Below, in pieces: positions 2,807 through 41,100 of a stretch of 64,000 nucleotides of DNA. The position numbers were made by a program, and so were the translations under genes. Position 1 is the first letter of the stretch; every line of letters starts with the position of its first letter. The notes under the pieces are model-generated. The model was not told the DNA's origin and did no database searches. It saw only the letters and a list, made by a program, of their open reading frames with translations. Source of the stretch: Desulforamulus ruminis DSM 2154 (lineage in GTDB: Bacteria > Bacillota > Desulfotomaculia > Desulfotomaculales > Desulfotomaculaceae); NCBI RefSeq assembly GCF_000215085.1, contig NC_015589.1, forward strand, positions 2,616,120-2,680,119, in the 5' to 3' direction.

Positions 2807-3162
2807 GGGATCACCAACCTCAGGTTATTTTTCCACAAATGACAATAATTATTGGTGGAAGGCACGATTCTTTTAAATAAATGGGTAAAAACCGTGCCTG
2901 TACTCATGGACACTGAAAGCCATTCTTGTTATAATAAAAAAAATTAAACATTGATTAAATGTGTTGTGTCAAAGGGGCGCAAGGATTGTTCAGCTAACGG
3001 GGGGGTAGCTTTTATAAGCTATCTCCTTTTTTATTGGGCTTGTACCTACCGGCTCGGTAATGAAAGTATTATAAAAATGGAAAGGCTAAGAGCAAAGTGA
3101 CCTTTCCCAGAAACCGGTAGAAAATGTGCTTTATTAACACCAAAAAGTTCAGGAGGGAATGA
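2807..3162. promoter_or_regulatory. Intergenic region between gerA and the carrier gene: inverted repeat and a leader
   Basis: No gene is seen in these 355 bases. Near gerA an inverted repeat pairs GGCACG (2861-2866) with CGTGCC (2893-2898); it may be an operator or a small hairpin. From about 2960 the plus strand carries what looks like a structured leader for the gene at 3163, ending in the intrinsic terminator listed separately. The RBS of that gene is the AGGAGG at 3151-3156. Confidence 0.4.
3001..3035 (+). terminator. Intrinsic terminator inside the leader of the 3163 carrier gene
   Basis: An 11-bp stem pairs 3001-3011 (GGGGGTAGCTT) with 3016-3026 (AAGCTATCTCC, with two G-U pairs), followed by CTTTTTTATT-type U-rich sequence. 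It lies 130 bases upstream of the start codon, in the sense direction. AGCTA just upstream (2993-2997) can pair with TAGCT in the 5' half of the stem and so could act as an antiterminator. This is the layout of an attenuator or riboswitch. The aptamer class was not recognised. Confidence 0.6.
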
Positions 3163-4440
3163 ATGGAAAAGCAATTCATTTTGGCTGTTGTTATCTTTCT
3201 GATAACCTATGCCTTCATCGTATCGGAAAAAATTCCCCGCACGGTGGCGGCTCTGGCGGGTGCGGTGGTGGCGCTTTTGGCAGGTCTGGTCAGCCAGGAA
3301 AAAGCCATCCATTATATTGATTGGAATACCATCGGGCTTTTGGTGGGAATGATGATCCTGGTCTCCATAACCCGGCGAACCGGCGTATTTGAGTATCTGG
3401 CCATCCGGGCCGCCGTGACCTCCAAGGGAGACCCCCTAAGGCTGCTGGTCTTATTGGCGGTGATTACCGCCGTTGCTTCAGCCCTTTTAGATAACGTAAC
3501 CACGGTGCTGCTGGTAGTTCCCGTAACCTTCTCCATCTGCCGGGAACTGCAGGTGAAGGTGGTGCCTTTTTTAATCACCGAGATTATGGCCAGCAATATC
3601 GGCGGCACCTCCACTCTGATCGGCGACCCGCCCAACATCATGATCAGCGGCCCCGCAGGCTTGTCTTTCATGGAATTTATTTACAATTTAGGTCCCATTG
3701 CTTTGGTTATTTTTATTATAACCATCCCTATATTGCGTTGGATCTACCGCAAAGATCTGAAGGCAGATCCCCAATTAATGGCAAAAATAACAGCTTTAAG
3801 TCCGGAGGATGAAATCAAAGATCCAAAACTGCTGAAACAGTCTCTTTTTGTTCTGGCTTTAACCATTTTGGGCTTTGCCTTACACAGCATTACGCACATA
3901 CCCACCGCCACCATTGCTCTGGCTGGCGCGGTGCTGCTCCTGCTCATCACCCGGGAAGAACCGGAACAAGTTTTAGAAACCATTGAATGGCCTACCATTT
4001 TCTTTTTTGTCGGTTTATTTATTGTGGTGGGCTCCTTGGAAGAAACCGGCGTCATTCACTGGGTAGCTGAATCGGCCCTGCGCCTCACCGGCGGGGAGAT
4101 TTTACCCACAGGTCTGTTAATTTTATGGCTTTCAGCCCTGGCCTCCGCCTTTGTAGACAACATTCCTTTTGTGGCCACCATGATTCCCCTGCTGCAGCAA
4201 ATGGGTCAAATGGGCGGTATCGCCAACCTGGACCCCCTGTGGTGGTCCCTGGCCTTGGGCGCCTGCCTGGGCGGCAACGGCACCCTGGTGGGCGCCGCGG
4301 CCAACGTCATTGTAGCCGGTATGGCTGAAAAACAGGGAACGCCCTTAAGCTTTCTGGGGTTCATGAAAGTGGCTTTTCCTTTGATGATTCTGTCTATTGT
4401 ATTAAGCACCCTTTATTTGCTTCTTTTCTACCTGCGCTAA
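3163..4440 (+). CDS. Ion transporter superfamily protein (ArsB/NhaD-like permease)
   Basis: A 425-residue integral membrane protein with about eleven hydrophobic segments. It shows the internal two-fold repeat of the ion transporter superfamily: ALLDNVTTVLL followed by IGGTSTLIGDPPNI (around residues 108-165) in the first half, and SAFVDNIPFVATM followed by GGNGTLVGAAANV in the second. These motifs are shared by ArsB arsenite pumps, NhaD Na+/H+ antiporters and the human P protein. I infer an ion or oxyanion efflux carrier; the substrate is not decidable from sequence, and no arsR/arsC gene is adjacent. Expression may be controlled by transcription attenuation in the leader. Confidence 0.85.
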   Translation: MEKQFILAVVIFLITYAFIVSEKIPRTVAALAGAVVALLAGLVSQEKAIHYIDWNTIGLLVGMMILVSITRRTGVFEYLAIRAAVTSKGDPLRLLVLLAVITAVASALLDNVTTVLLVVPVTFSICRELQVKVVPFLITEIMASNIGGTSTLIGDPPNIMISGPAGLSFMEFIYNLGPIALVIFIITIPILRWIYRKDLKADPQLMAKITALSPEDEIKDPKLLKQSLFVLALTILGFALHSITHIPTATIALAGAVLLLLITREEPEQVLETIEWPTIFFFVGLFIVVGSLEETGVIHWVAESALRLTGGEILPTGLLILWLSALASAFVDNIPFVATMIPLLQQMGQMGGIANLDPLWWSLALGACLGGNGTLVGAAANVIVAGMAEKQGTPLSFLGFMKVAFPLMILSIVLSTLYLLLFYLR

Positions 4441-4452
4441 AGCTTCTTCATC

Positions 4453-4493
4453 AAAAACCAACAGGGGAGCCTCCGCTCCCCCTGTTGGTTTTT
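4453..4493. terminator. Bidirectional intrinsic terminator
   Basis: Strong hairpin: AAAAACCAACAGGGG pairs with CCCCTGTTGGTTTTT across an AGC-CTCC-GCT tip. A-rich and U-rich flanks on both sides let it serve the plus-strand carrier gene (stop at 4440) and the minus-strand gene whose stop is at 4496. Confidence 0.9.
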
Positions 4494-4495
4494 GA

Positions 4496-4723
4496 TCATT
4501 TACCATTCATGATTTTATCCATACCCGATTGGGTGATATAATACTTCCCTTGCTCTTCCCTGGCCAGACCTGCTTCCAGCATCTCCCGAAAGACCATGCG
4601 GACTCTGAACAGGGGCAGCTTATTTCCACCGGCATATTCTTCCAGGGTAATCCCCCCTTGCATGGCCGTTAAGGCTCCCACAGCCGTAGGCAACAAGGTT
4701 CCGTCGGCGTTAATGCATGCCAC
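4496..4723 (-). CDS. Small conserved-looking protein, possible winged-helix fold
   Basis: A 75-residue soluble protein of unknown function. The open frame begins at ATG 4738, but GGAGGTGG followed six bases later by GTG (4723) makes that GTG the better start. The C-terminal half (VRMVFREMLEAGLAREEQG then YYITQSGMDKI) resembles the last helix and wing of a small winged-helix or 'leads-to-leaf' DNA-binding domain. That is a weak inference. It lies 39 bases downstream of the peroxiredoxin gene on the same strand and shares the terminator at 4453-4493, so the two may be cotranscribed. Confidence 0.65.
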   Translation of the reverse strand: MACINADGTLLPTAVGALTAMQGGITLEEYAGGNKLPLFRVRMVFREMLEAGLAREEQGKYYITQSGMDKIMNGK

Positions 4724-35966: not shown

Positions 35967-36863
35967 ATGAATCTAATGTATTTAAAAATATTTAAGACCC
36001 TGGCTGAAACGGAAAATATGGCCAAAGCCATAAAATTGCTGGAGTTATCTCAACCCACCATAAACCATAATATTTATCTGCTGGAACAGCATTATGGCGC
36101 TAAATTATTTGACCGTTCCAGTAAAAAATTAAAATTAACCCGCTTTGGGGAAGTCTTGATGGGTTACGTCACTGAAATATTAACCTTACTGGAGCGCTCG
36201 GAACAACACATTGCCACTCTGGTGGGTGAAATACACGGAGATTTATTTTTAGGAGCCAGCCATACCATTGCGGAAAATGTACTGCCTAAAATGATGGCCA
36301 TGTTTAATCACGATTACCCGGGAGTAAACATCCACCTGGAGGTAACCAACACCCGGCATATTGTGGATCACATTTTAGATGAGAAGCTGGAACTGGGATT
36401 AATTGAGGGGCCTGTAAAAAATGAAAATGTAATCGGGAAGTCCTTTATGAAAGACGAATTGGTGGTTGTGCTTCCCTACAGTCATCCTCTGTCCATTAAA
36501 AAGAATTTAACCCTGAAGGAATTGTCCTCTCTGCCCTTTGTATTAAGAGAACCGGGTTCCGGAACCAGGGTTGTGATGGAAGATAGCTTGAAATCAGCCG
36601 GGTTAGATCCTTCGGAACTGAATACGGTCATGGAAATGGGAAATACCCAGGCGGTCATTGGCGCGGTGGAAGCCGGACTGGGCGCCAGTATTTTATCGGC
36701 CCTGGCTGTGAGCAAAGAGATTCAGCTAAAAACGGTAAAAGTCTGCAAAATAGCCAATGTAACCATTGTGCGGAATTTTTCATTGATCTTCAAGAAAGAT
36801 CGCAACCTCTCCCCTCCGTGTGAAACCTTTCTTTCCTTTATTCATGCCCAGGAGACGGAATAA
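35967..36863 (+). CDS. LysR family transcriptional regulator
   Basis: A 298-residue regulator: an N-terminal winged helix-turn-helix (MYLKIFKTLAETENMAKAIK then LLELSQPTINHNIYLLEQ, residues 4-40) and a C-terminal periplasmic-binding-protein-like effector domain (GDLFLGASHTIAENVLPKMM through VIGAVEAGLGASIL). It resembles the CysL/YwfK group. LysR proteins commonly regulate the divergent gene, here the O-methyltransferase. Control of the hydrogenase operon 500 bases downstream is also possible. The effector is unknown. Confidence 0.93.
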   Translation: MNLMYLKIFKTLAETENMAKAIKLLELSQPTINHNIYLLEQHYGAKLFDRSSKKLKLTRFGEVLMGYVTEILTLLERSEQHIATLVGEIHGDLFLGASHTIAENVLPKMMAMFNHDYPGVNIHLEVTNTRHIVDHILDEKLELGLIEGPVKNENVIGKSFMKDELVVVLPYSHPLSIKKNLTLKELSSLPFVLREPGSGTRVVMEDSLKSAGLDPSELNTVMEMGNTQAVIGAVEAGLGASILSALAVSKEIQLKTVKVCKIANVTIVRNFSLIFKKDRNLSPPCETFLSFIHAQETE

Positions 36864-36932
36864 ACTATTGAATAATCCGCAGAAAAGGGCCAATCACGTT
36901 ATGCCGTTCCTAGGATGGCCAATAAGAAAATT

Positions 36933-36972
36933 AATCTACCCAAAAGGACTGCCTCTAACTCTTGGGTAGATT
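36933..36972 (+). terminator. Intrinsic terminator of the LysR gene
   Basis: AATCTACCCAA pairs with TTGGGTAGATT across an 18-base loop, followed by TTTTATTTTTCC. It ends lysR transcription and separates it from the hydrogenase operon. Confidence 0.85.
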
Positions 36973-37206
36973 TTTTATTTTTCCTTATGATTAAGGCCTG
37001 TCAATTAAAACAAGGTGATCCGGAAGGGGTTGTCTTTCACATTTTATTGCTGCCTTTATAAGCATAAAATACGATTGAAAAAAATGTTCAAAAAATTTCA
37101 ATTAGTGAAGGAATTACTAATATTCCGAAGAATAACTAATTGATGATTGTATTCTTTTTCTCAAACAACACATTTATCCTAATCACCGGGCTTACTAAAG
37201 TGACTT

Positions 37207-37283
37207 CATGGCAAAGGTGCGGAAGGAACTTACATGCTTGGGCCAGCCATGTGTTTTCCGCACAGCCTGGCCTATTTTTGTTT
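37207..37283 (+). promoter_or_regulatory. Structured 5' leader (possible riboswitch/attenuator) of the hydrogenase operon
   Basis: Three interleaved pairings are possible. GTGCGGAA (37217-37224) pairs with TTCCGCAC (37256-37263). GGCCAG (37241-37246), inside that loop, pairs with CTGGCC (37267-37272) and, with TGTG/CACA stacking inside, forms an intrinsic terminator followed by TATTTTTGTTTC. CATGGC (37207-37212) pairs with GCCATG (37246-37251). The first two are either mutually exclusive (antiterminator versus terminator) or an H-type pseudoknot. I do not recognise a known riboswitch class. Confidence 0.55.
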
Positions 37284-37368
37284 CTTCTTTAATACATATA
37301 AATAAAAAAGATTTTAAATTTTGCCTTATTTTTATTTTTTCCATAAAAAACACAAAGGAGGAAAGTTC

Positions 37369-38934
37369 ATGGAAAACCGCACGACAACGCCAAAACCCGT
37401 AACCCGGCGTGGTTTCCTCAAGATGCTTGGGGGAGTCGGATTAGCCGGTGTGGCCGCAACCATTACCGGCTGCAGTACGGATCAAGCCGGAGGCAAAGGA
37501 TGGCTGCCCCAGCAGTATCAGGTAGCCAGTTCCTGGCCCGTACAAGTGAAGGGCCGCATTCCTATTGATCCCAACAATCCTTCCATCACCCGGGATGATC
37601 AAAAATGCATCCTCTGCGGCCAATGCATTGAGGCCTGTGAAAGGATCCAAACGGTTTATGGCTATTATGAGACTCCCATTAAAGACGACATCACCTGTGT
37701 AAACTGCGGCCAGTGCACACTGTGGTGCCCCACTGCGGCCATCACTGAAGTGGACGATATTGATAAGGTGGTCAAAGCCCTGGAGGACGAAAATGTACAC
37801 GTAGTGGTACAAACCGCCCCGGCCACCCGGGTTGCCCTGGGTGAGGAGTTTGGTATGCCGGCAGGCAGCATTGTAGAGGGCAAACAGGTTGCCGCCCTTA
37901 AAAAACTAGGCTTTGATGGGGTTTTTGATACTAATTTTTCTGCAGATCTGACCATTATGGAAGAAGGCACCGAGCTGGTCAAACGGGTAACCGGCGAGTT
38001 AGATCATCCTCTGCCCCAGTTTACCTCCTGCAGCCCCGGCTGGGTTAAATTCTGTGAATATTTTTACCCGGACCTGCTGGGACACATGTCTTCAGCCAAG
38101 TCTCCCCAGCAAATGCTGGGCGCGGTGGTTAAGACGTATTATGCCGAGCAAAAGGGGCTTGACCCGGAAAAGATTGTTTCTGTTTCCATCATGCCGTGTA
38201 CGGCCAAGAAGTATGAATGTCAGCGCCCGGAAATGAACGATGCCGGCCATAAAATCGGCAAGCCCCAGATCAGGGACGTTGATATTGTATTAACCACCCG
38301 CGAATTGGCCCGGTTAATTAAGTCCAAAGGCATCGACCTGACCAAGCTGGAAGACGCTCAATATGATTCCATCCTGGGCGAAGGCACCGGAGCCGCGGTT
38401 ATCTTCGGCACCACCGGCGGCGTCATGGAAGCGGCCGTCCGCTCCGCCTACTTCCTGATTACCAAGCAAAATCCTCCGGACGCGTTATTGAACCTGACTC
38501 CCGTTCGAGGCTTGAATGGCGTTAAAGAGGCTTCCCTGGAAATTCCCGGCGTGGGTCAGGTCAATGTAGCCATTTGTTCCGGCCTTAGCAATGCCCGTAA
38601 AATTCTGGATCAACTGCGGGTCGATTTGAAACAGGGCAATCCACCCCGTTATCATTTTATTGAGTTTATGAGCTGTCCTGGCGGCTGCATCGGCGGCGGC
38701 GGTCAACCCCGAACATCATTGCCTCCCTCTGACCAGGTACGCCAAGCCCGTCTAAACAGCCTGTACACCATGGACGCCAAAATGTACAAAAAGCGCCTGA
38801 GCCATGAAAATAGCGAGGTTCTGCAGTTGTATAAGAATTACCTGGAGCAGCCTATGAGCCATTTGGCCGAAGAACTGCTGCACACCGAGTATACCGATCG
38901 CGGCGATACCCTAACCGTTAAAAAGCAAGTTTAA
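37369..38934 (+). CDS. hydA: Tat-exported group A [FeFe]-hydrogenase, catalytic subunit
   Basis: A 521-residue H2-activating enzyme. A twin-arginine signal (VTRRGFLKMLGGVGLAGVAA) ends in ITGC, a lipobox-like site (Cys35), so export through Tat and lipid anchoring are likely. Two ferredoxin-type clusters follow (Cys 80/83/86/90 and 110/113/116/120). H-cluster motifs are TSCSPGW (219-225), MPCTAKKYE and EFMSCPGGCIGGGGQP. The C-terminal 60 residues (NSLYTMDAKMYKKRLSHENS) correspond to the small subunit, fused here. The usual TSCC pair is TSCS. It heads an operon with HybA- and HybB-like genes. I chose ATG 37369 with AGGAGG over the frame opening at 37321. Confidence 0.95.
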   Translation: MENRTTTPKPVTRRGFLKMLGGVGLAGVAATITGCSTDQAGGKGWLPQQYQVASSWPVQVKGRIPIDPNNPSITRDDQKCILCGQCIEACERIQTVYGYYETPIKDDITCVNCGQCTLWCPTAAITEVDDIDKVVKALEDENVHVVVQTAPATRVALGEEFGMPAGSIVEGKQVAALKKLGFDGVFDTNFSADLTIMEEGTELVKRVTGELDHPLPQFTSCSPGWVKFCEYFYPDLLGHMSSAKSPQQMLGAVVKTYYAEQKGLDPEKIVSVSIMPCTAKKYECQRPEMNDAGHKIGKPQIRDVDIVLTTRELARLIKSKGIDLTKLEDAQYDSILGEGTGAAVIFGTTGGVMEAAVRSAYFLITKQNPPDALLNLTPVRGLNGVKEASLEIPGVGQVNVAICSGLSNARKILDQLRVDLKQGNPPRYHFIEFMSCPGGCIGGGGQPRTSLPPSDQVRQARLNSLYTMDAKMYKKRLSHENSEVLQLYKNYLEQPMSHLAEELLHTEYTDRGDTLTVKKQV

Positions 38935-38951: not shown

Positions 38952-39737
38952 ATGGCAAAAGGTGTATTGGTTGATCTTACCAAGTGTGTGGGCTGCGGCA
39001 GTTGTACAGTAGCCTGCAAACTCTGGAACGATTTAGAATACGATGACAAAAACCCTACCCTTGGCGATAAAGCCAAGTTATCGGACAAAAACTGGACGGT
39101 GGTTCATTTTAATCAAGTGGCTTCTCAGGAGGGTAAACCCGTCTGGCGTTTTGTAAAACAGCAGTGCCTGCACTGTCAGGAACCTGCCTGCGCCTCAGCT
39201 TGTTTTGCCAAGGCCTTGCAAAAAACTCCCGAGGGCCCGGTGGTCTATTATCCTCATTTGTGCGTTGGCTGCCGTTACTGCATGATTGCCTGTCCCTTTA
39301 ACATTCCCAAATATGAATGGGAGAAAACCTTCCCCCTGGTCTCTAAATGCCAGATGTGCTCTACCAAGGTGGCCAAGGGTGAAGCCCCTGCCTGCGTTTC
39401 CGTCTGCCCTGCCGGCGTGTTTACCTTTGGTGAGCGGGATGAAATGCTTAAAGCCGCAAAGTCTGCTATTATTCAAGATAATAGATATATAAAAGAAGTC
39501 TATGGGGAAAACCAGGCTGGAGGCACTTCTTGGCTGTATATCTCTGATGTTCCCTTCGCCACACTGGGCTTTAACGTAAATCTGGGCACTATCCCTCTGC
39601 CTACCTATTCTCATAACTTCTTGAAGTACACACCCATTGTAGCCGTCAGTTGGGGTGTCATTTTAACCGGACTTTATCATTACACCAAACGACGTAATGA
39701 AATAGCCAAAGACTCAAATAAAAACGTTAAACTATAA
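38952..39737 (+). CDS. Four-cluster ferredoxin subunit (HybA/HmcB-like) with C-terminal anchor
   Basis: A 261-residue electron-transfer subunit. Four [4Fe-4S] motifs occur in the DmsB/HybA order: CVGCGSCTVAC, CLHCQEPACASAC, CVGCRYCMIAC and CQMCSTKVAKGEAPACVSVC. One hydrophobic helix near the C-terminus (TPIVAVSWGVILTGLYHY) anchors it. No signal peptide is present, so it would be exported as a complex with the Tat-bearing HydA. Alternatively the ferredoxin domain faces the other side. It should carry electrons from HydA to the HybB-like quinone-reactive subunit. The RBS GGAGGTG lies 17 bases after hydA. Confidence 0.93.
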   Translation: MAKGVLVDLTKCVGCGSCTVACKLWNDLEYDDKNPTLGDKAKLSDKNWTVVHFNQVASQEGKPVWRFVKQQCLHCQEPACASACFAKALQKTPEGPVVYYPHLCVGCRYCMIACPFNIPKYEWEKTFPLVSKCQMCSTKVAKGEAPACVSVCPAGVFTFGERDEMLKAAKSAIIQDNRYIKEVYGENQAGGTSWLYISDVPFATLGFNVNLGTIPLPTYSHNFLKYTPIVAVSWGVILTGLYHYTKRRNEIAKDSNKNVKL

Positions 39738-39786
39738 TTGGATCTTCTCTTTGATACCTATTAAAAAACCTATAGGGGGGAACGCA

Positions 39787-40917
39787 ATGGCCAATCAAGG
39801 TTGGAGTTTTAAACTAACTCCCATAAGAAAATTATTGATTCTTTTGGCCGCACTGGCAGTGGCTATCTCCATTTTCCGTCTGGCCACCGGCCTGGGCCTG
39901 GTTACTAATTTAAATGACGAGTGGCCCTGGGGTTTGTGGATCGGCTTTGACGTCCTGACCGGCGTTGCTTTGGCCGGCGGCGGCTATTTTACCGCAATTA
40001 TTGTTCATGTATTACACCGGGACCATTTCCATGCCATCGCTCGCAGCGCCATGCTGACTTCACTGCTGGGCTACCTGCTGGTCATGGCCGGTCTGTTCCT
40101 GGATATCGGCCAGTGGTTCAATTTCTGGCGTCCCTTTGTATCCTGGGGACACACTTCGGTACTTTTTGAAGTTTTCTGGTGCGTATCCTGCTATACCACC
40201 ATCCAAGTGCTGGAGTTTGGAGAAATCTTCACCGAGCGGGTCGGCATCAAATGGAATAATCTCTTTAGAAAAGCCATGCCGGTACTGCTCATTGTGGGAA
40301 TTATCTTCCCCACCCTGCACCAGTCTTCCCTGGGGGGTCTCTATCTCATTGCTGTCGACAAATTGTACCCCCTCTGGTGGTCTACGCTGATTCCTTATTT
40401 CTTCCTGATTTCGTCCTTCTTTGTGGGTCCGGCCATGATTGCTGTGGAAACAACCCTGGCGGGCAATGCCTATAAGCATAAGGTACCCATTGATGTTATC
40501 CGGGGACTGGCCAGAATTGGCGGGTATTTCATGATCCTCTATTTAATTCTGAAGATCTTCGATTTATCCAACCGCAATGTATGGAATCTGGTCTTTGCCG
40601 GAAACCTGGAAGGCAACCTGTTCCTGCTTGAACTGGTGGCAGGGGTTATCATCCCCATCATCATTGTTTTCAGCAGTATGAGCGCCTCCCGTTCCGGCCT
40701 CTTCATCTATGGTTTACTGGTCAGCGGCGGCTTGATCTTAAACCGTATGAATGTTGTGTTCACCGGCATGTCCGGCGCCTCCGGCGGCTCCTACTTCCCC
40801 TCTGTGTGGGAATGGTTTGTAAGCATCGGCCTGGTCTCCATCGGTGTCTTGGCTTACTGCTTCATTGTGGAAAACTTTAAGATTCTTGACCACGACGATC
40901 AGCACAAAACCGCTTAA
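39787..40917 (+). CDS. hybB: NrfD/HybB-like quinone-reactive membrane subunit
   Basis: A 376-residue membrane protein with about ten hydrophobic helices and HybB/NrfD family features: NDEWPWGLWIGFDVLTGVAL, GLFLDIGQWFNFWRPF, LHQSSLGGLYL, and RMNVVFTGMSGASGGSYFPS near the end. It passes electrons between the exported iron-sulfur subunits and the menaquinone pool, and may conserve energy. The frame opens at 39751; ATG 39787 with the GGGGGG tract before it is the start. It is the last gene of the hydA-hybA-hybB operon; repeat copy 3 follows directly. Confidence 0.93.
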   Translation: MANQGWSFKLTPIRKLLILLAALAVAISIFRLATGLGLVTNLNDEWPWGLWIGFDVLTGVALAGGGYFTAIIVHVLHRDHFHAIARSAMLTSLLGYLLVMAGLFLDIGQWFNFWRPFVSWGHTSVLFEVFWCVSCYTTIQVLEFGEIFTERVGIKWNNLFRKAMPVLLIVGIIFPTLHQSSLGGLYLIAVDKLYPLWWSTLIPYFFLISSFFVGPAMIAVETTLAGNAYKHKVPIDVIRGLARIGGYFMILYLILKIFDLSNRNVWNLVFAGNLEGNLFLLELVAGVIIPIIIVFSSMSASRSGLFIYGLLVSGGLILNRMNVVFTGMSGASGGSYFPSVWEWFVSIGLVSIGVLAYCFIVENFKILDHDDQHKTA

Positions 40918-40938: not shown

Positions 40939-41100
40939 GTTGCTGCAAAAAAACCGGATGGTTGGATTGCGCGCCCTTCATTTCCCAAAAATAAAAAATA
41001 GAACGCGGATTTTGCGGATTTCCACGGATTCTCGCGGATTTTATAAATTTTTAATAAAATCCGCGGAAATCCGTATTATCCGTTCAATCCGTGTTCTATT
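40939..41100. repeat. Dispersed GGATT inverted repeat, copy 3
   Basis: Arms AATAGAACGCGGATTTTGCG and CAATCCGTGTTCTATT enclose further GGATT/AATCC units around TATAAATTTTTAATA. The outer arms pair almost perfectly. About 58 bases to the left (TTGCTGCAAAAAAACCGGAT then GGTTG) match the left flank of copy 4, so the mobile or duplicated unit is probably 160 bases or more. It sits between the convergent hybB and YkgJ genes. Confidence 0.9.

Follow-up and report, generated by a model that had tools for sequence, protein, structure and literature searches.

An [FeFe]-hydrogenase operon of Desulforamulus, apparently driven by sigma-H, has in its leader what is very probably a real, genus-wide terminator/antiterminator attenuator. 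In its working this predicted attenuator would resemble the output half of Moco/Tuco riboswitches, but it fails the aptamer test and so falls outside RF01055. Most probably the leader derives from a Moco-type platform and lacks the aptamer, or else it copies the design of such a platform. As a single explanation of everything described below, we lean modestly toward an attenuator that derives from a Moco-type platform and has no aptamer.

Locus and leader layout

The window, by which we mean the whole analysed stretch of 64,000 nucleotides from Desulforamulus ruminis DSM 2154, belongs to a 3.97-Mb genome in a single contig. The leader lies between a LysR-type gene (35967-36863) and the hydA-hmcB-nrfD operon of Desulforamulus (Table 1). 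Read by eye, the hydA product begins with a twin-arginine signal, RRGFLK. The closest model to the LysR-type regulator is the selenium-metabolism LysR NF040786 (238.6 bits against a cut-off of 250), and at least two other species likewise have the end of a LysR-like gene 5' of the hydA leader. The LysR gene has its own terminator near 36933-36972; a VR-RNA match at 36904-36990 overlies it, scores far below the cut-off, and was rejected. At the other end of the operon, between the NrfD gene and a convergent gene, positions 41003-41095 are densely packed with direct and inverted repeats, interleaved and of the GCGGATTT/AAATCCGC type, possibly a terminator or a repetitive element.

Table 1. Features of the hydA leader and operon in the window (S1, antiterminator helix; S2, terminator helix)
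Feature	Position	Strand	Basis or conservation
Sigma-H-type promoter, AGGAATT-N14-GAATAA	37109..37135	+	single match in window; 0.04 expected by chance
Untranslated hydA leader	37142..37368	+	inferred: start estimated from promoter position, end from hydA start
S1a, antiterminator 5' arm, GTGCGGAA	37217..37224	+	5/8 species; arm identity 93%
S2a, 5' arm of predicted intrinsic terminator, GGCCAG	37241..37246	+	8/8 species; three pairs changed on both sides
S1b, antiterminator 3' arm, TTCCGCAC, within terminator loop	37256..37263	+	5/8 species; arm identity 87%
S2b, CTGGCC (37267-37272), and U-tract, TATTTTTG (37273-37280)	37267..37280	+	8/8 species
Shine-Dalgarno of hydA, AAAGGAGG	37354..37361	+	sequence; kept in 8/8 leaders
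hydA, exported group A [FeFe] hydrogenase	37369..38934	+	TIGR02512 (494 bits), PF02906, PF02256
HmcB/HybA-like iron-sulfur subunit	38952..39737	+	best model NF045715, 292 bits, below its cut-off
NrfD-type membrane subunit	39784..40917	+	PF03916

An earlier note on this DNA had drawn attention to interleaved complementary segments in the leader, and every segment that it quoted is present where it was placed. Could such an arrangement arise by chance? When the 91-nt region was dinucleotide-shuffled 20,000 times, an interleaved 8/6 pair appeared in 13 of the shuffles, and in 4 together with a T-rich tail. A shuffled 64-kb strand would hold about 1.8 such arrangements somewhere, or 0.4 with the T tail. 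The pattern alone is therefore suggestive only, and orthologues were collected.

We compared the hydA leaders from eight Desulforamulus species. Eight of the nine genomes of the genus encode a HydA orthologue (81-86% identity) plus a paralogue, and the ninth encodes the paralogue only. The order of elements is the same in all eight leaders: sigma-H-type promoter, 18-nt box, terminator with U-tract, Shine-Dalgarno, and hydA. The leaders of the paralogous hydA genes (L073 1100-1500, L105-L111) share other features, namely a TTTTTTAAATTTTGTGACAAAT stretch and a CTAACGA/TCGTTAG-type hairpin, and have no obvious sigma-H-type promoter.

Judged by its motif, the promoter is a predicted sigma-H promoter. 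Extended to the GA at 37107, it conforms to RnAGGAwww-N11-RnnGAATww, the consensus terms being those of PMC8510167. The core AGGAATW-N14-GAATAA occurs in all eight leaders, and the full pattern with a spacer of N11-12 matched all four leaders scanned with it. The interleaved structure begins about 80 nt 3' of this promoter. We did not find a sigma-H-type promoter in hydrogenase leaders from other genera. The earlier note's reading, under which no promoter should follow position 37283, holds in the orthologous leaders: no sigma-70-type promoter is conserved 3' of the terminator, and the sigma-H-type promoter stands upstream in each of the eight.

The 18-nt box, TTGTATTCTTTTTCTCAA at 37147-37164, follows, with slight variation, the pattern TTGT-N5-TTTTC-Y-CAA in all eight leaders, where it stands 11-46 nt past the -10 element, and is kept in the species that have no S1. 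A common fold was sought in the hairpins around the box and was not found. The half-sites and spacing of the box are reminiscent of a degenerate Rex operator, and the genome encodes a Rex-type protein domain. In the leader we recognised no site for a known RNA-binding antiterminator. Might a translating ribosome control the leader instead? From an ATG near 37143, 49 codons stay open through the structure, as leader-peptide attenuation would need, but this ATG has no Shine-Dalgarno, and no open reading frame preceded by one is conserved among the eight leaders. We regard ribosome-dependent attenuation as extremely improbable.

A predicted terminator and a competing helix

S2 is a predicted intrinsic terminator. 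Its hairpin folds with a z score of -2.9 relative to shuffles, and across the eight leaders it takes the form GGYCAG.../...CTGRCC, or a G-U variant, with the U-tract after it. Pairing holds in 93.1% of cells over the eight species, 3 of 9 pairs show double-sided change, and sliding the S2 partners out of register abolishes the signal. The compensatory changes that the earlier note asked for in homologues are present in the terminator; none occurs in the aligned pairs of S1. Between the promoter and the first gene, then, there is an intrinsic terminator whose pairing is conserved.

S1 has the core TGCGG.../...CCGCA and is 6-8 bp long in the five species that carry it. Its arms are far better conserved (87-93% identity) than the leader before S1 (34%) or the loops (51-57%). 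The deepest split in the HydA tree of the group has S1-bearing species on either side, and the three that lack S1 fall into one clade (support 100/100), so a single loss suffices to explain their state. By eye, one outer pair has changed from G-C to U-A in genome G004. Because S1 varies so little, its backing is the conservation of two distant complementary arms rather than covariation, and it is in this sense that a competing helix is conserved in five of eight species. A third pairing that had been proposed, CATGGC (37207-37212) with GCCATG (37246-37251), fell away, having no counterpart in the other seven leaders.

The three species that retain the terminator only fit a simpler account, in which a plain constitutive terminator reduces read-through to hydA and S1 is passive. 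We find this account improbable, as both S1 arms are strongly conserved in five species across the deepest split, and we prefer an attenuator in which S1 and S2 compete.

Proposed switching

In the leader of the window the S1 fold (-32.1 kcal/mol) and the terminator fold (-33.8 kcal/mol) lie less than 2 kcal/mol apart. Over the leader, the terminator fold is lower by 11-19 kcal/mol in the other four S1 species. When the segment from S1a to S2b is folded alone, the terminator is lower by 2-8 kcal/mol in those four, and the window favours S1 by 4. A linker of 0-3 nt separates S1b from S2b, and the other loops are 7-23 nt.

The earlier note had left the choice between an H-type pseudoknot and a terminator/antiterminator switch. 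A terminator with a competing pairing was borne out, and we prefer mutually exclusive folding of S1 and S2. The interleaved arms would also allow both helices to form together, and the short linker would permit them to stack end to end; with that same linker, however, the two other loops must span S1 and S2. Moreover, termination already accounts for S2 and the U-tract, and the terminator fold is the one of lowest energy in the other species. A pseudoknot accordingly seems to us quite unlikely.

Under mutually exclusive folding, RNA polymerase would initiate near 37142 and transcribe S1a, S2a, and S1b in turn. As S1b is made before S2b, S1 could form first, which would trap S2a in the S1 loop. 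As S2b emerges, the terminator helix S2a-S2b would come to compete with S1, usually as the more stable of the two. With S1 intact, transcription would read through to hydA; if S1 is prevented or opened, it would end at 37273-37280. In the aptamer-less leader of today, the level of read-through may be fixed or kinetically tuned.

Likeness to Moco/Tuco riboswitches

A covariance model, R1, built from the five S1-bearing hydA attenuators only, was used to search 113 genomes of the order. At E<=0.05 it matched seven hydA leaders of Desulforamulus and, in other genera, nine places; within each Desulforamulus genome it matches one place, the hydA leader. A loose pattern search for the architecture elsewhere in the genus gave scattered matches. 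Two of the nine places outside the genus (L139 and L142) are Moco/Tuco expression platforms, with RF01055 scores of 58 and 71.5 bits. Since Moco platforms are a tiny share of genomes (by rough estimate well under 1% of intrinsic terminators), two in nine is unlikely to be chance.

The likeness extends to how the platforms pair. At 37 of 57 Moco loci examined in the order, at least 6 bases of the aptamer 3' strand region, TGCGGAAAGG, pair with the loop of the following terminator, and at two Moco loci of genome G006 (L180 and L200) GTGCGGAAAGG pairs with TCTTTTCGCAC immediately 5' of the terminator 3' arm. S1a (TGCGGAA) matches the Moco aptamer 3' strand sequence TGCGGAAAGGAG. In Moco/Tuco riboswitches, S1a corresponds to the aptamer 3' strand, which the cofactor-bound aptamer withholds, letting the terminator form.

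The pairing that RF01055 platforms of this order show, between aptamer 3' strand and terminator loop, has its equivalent here. The reverse model, R2, built from 16 Moco platform sequences only, is clear for the hydA leader of genome G005 only, which it scores at 23.3 bits, more than any of the non-Moco places listed there, this leader having failed the genome-wide first filter and the bit scores being compared across two separate runs. R2 gives the window 16.7 bits, no better than background terminators, and locus L002 13.3 bits. Reciprocal support for the Moco link from R1 and R2 is therefore partial.

Is there an aptamer? RF01055 (gathering threshold 36 bits) has no match in the window and none at E<=5 in 36860-37420, nor does it match six leaders at E<=10. 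Aptamer profile HMMs found nothing in the Desulforamulus hydA leaders, with Moco controls at 43-73 bits. A decayed Moco aptamer in the window, tempting when aligned by eye, was rejected, the gapped alignment failing to beat shuffles in four of five species; in G006 only, it rose weakly above them. The Rfam comparison that the earlier note had called for matched no family in the window or the leaders, and no conserved ligand-binding core was found in the leaders.

The earlier note's idea of a new ligand-binding riboswitch fares poorly, the loops and upstream leader being 34-57% identical and one clade having no S1. Such an element, of a new or strongly diverged class, would have its aptamer between 37142 and 37224, where the box is kept in all eight leaders, next to a platform of riboswitch type. 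But the leader from box to S1 is 34% identical and varies in length, the hairpins at the box have no common fold, and the box persists in species without S1. We judge this reading very unlikely. The same note knew of no described riboswitch of this shape for [FeFe]-hydrogenase operons. The shape itself has a precedent in the Moco/Tuco expression platforms of the order.

Where, then, did the attenuator come from? It may have arisen independently in the genus, without a Moco ancestor, the likeness to Moco platforms being convergence on a compact design and the choice between S1 and S2 falling to a protein, to pausing, or to elongation speed. That no aptamer is detectable and that R2 is weak on most leaders would agree with such an origin. 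Against it, S1a has the sequence of the Moco 3' strand in the same structural place, and among the nine out-of-genus matches of R1, a model blind to Moco sequences, two are Moco platforms, far above their share of the genomes. We consider independent origin rather unlikely, though a serious competitor. The most economical account is that the attenuator descends from a Moco platform, and we put this at nearly an even chance. Desulforamulus genomes are rich in Moco riboswitches (G000 has eight proper ones), so the family was available as a source.

PMC2408646, in which the Moco motif was described, reports terminator platforms and says nothing of hydrogenases. In the literature searched, we found no description of a hydA leader of this kind.

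Orthologous loci in Pelotomaculum

An intact RF01055 riboswitch (62.4 bits, 2713-2834) lies directly 5' of hydA (2980-4551) in Pelotomaculum propionicicum (L020), and two further open reading frames of the sizes expected for an orthologous operon follow that gene. R2 scores its platform at 57.1 bits, L020 being among the 16 training sequences of R2. At locus L026 an assembly gap is followed by the 3' half of a Moco riboswitch (19 bits). At L024 (Pelotomaculum sp. DTU098), about 2630-2880 and 5' of hydA, are two homologues of the L026 terminator with no detectable aptamer; they match it at 85% over 59 nt (E 2e-13) and 81% over 47 nt. L037 has none, and no Rfam riboswitch was found at 20 further hydA loci. 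At the hydA locus of another genus, then, aptamers appear to have decayed while terminators stayed. We found no Moco/Tuco riboswitch before a Pelotomaculum hydA in the literature searched.

The intact riboswitch before the Pelotomaculum operon suggests that the cofactor may ancestrally have switched hydrogenase against Mo/W enzymes. Tentatively, and with somewhat less assurance than for descent itself, we propose that Desulforamulus kept the output half of such a riboswitch after loss of the sensor, and that this half is now a self-standing, aptamer-free attenuator of an [FeFe] hydrogenase. This would tie an [FeFe]-hydrogenase operon to Moco/Tuco regulation, with a logic of metal choice between Mo/W enzymes and an iron hydrogenase. 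It would also be a natural example of possible riboswitch decay, in which the sensor has gone, the output was kept, and one clade is left with a bare terminator. With eight orthologous leaders in different states, the steps of such decay are testable.

Comparison with known attenuators

Terminator/antiterminator attenuators are known in the leaders of Firmicutes. The hydA leader shares with them an intrinsic terminator between promoter and first gene and a helix that competes with it. Unlike in those attenuators, S1 here spares the arms of the terminator, encloses its 5' arm, and uses its loop. It is in the Moco platforms that this arrangement recurs: the order is S1a-S2a-S1b-S2b-U-tract, as in the hydA leader, and the partner of TGCGGAAAGG is a segment of CTTTCCGCA type in the terminator loop. 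The Desulforamulus hydA leaders differ from the Moco/Tuco system in having no detectable aptamer and in their product, as the [FeFe] hydrogenase controlled here is no Moco enzyme.
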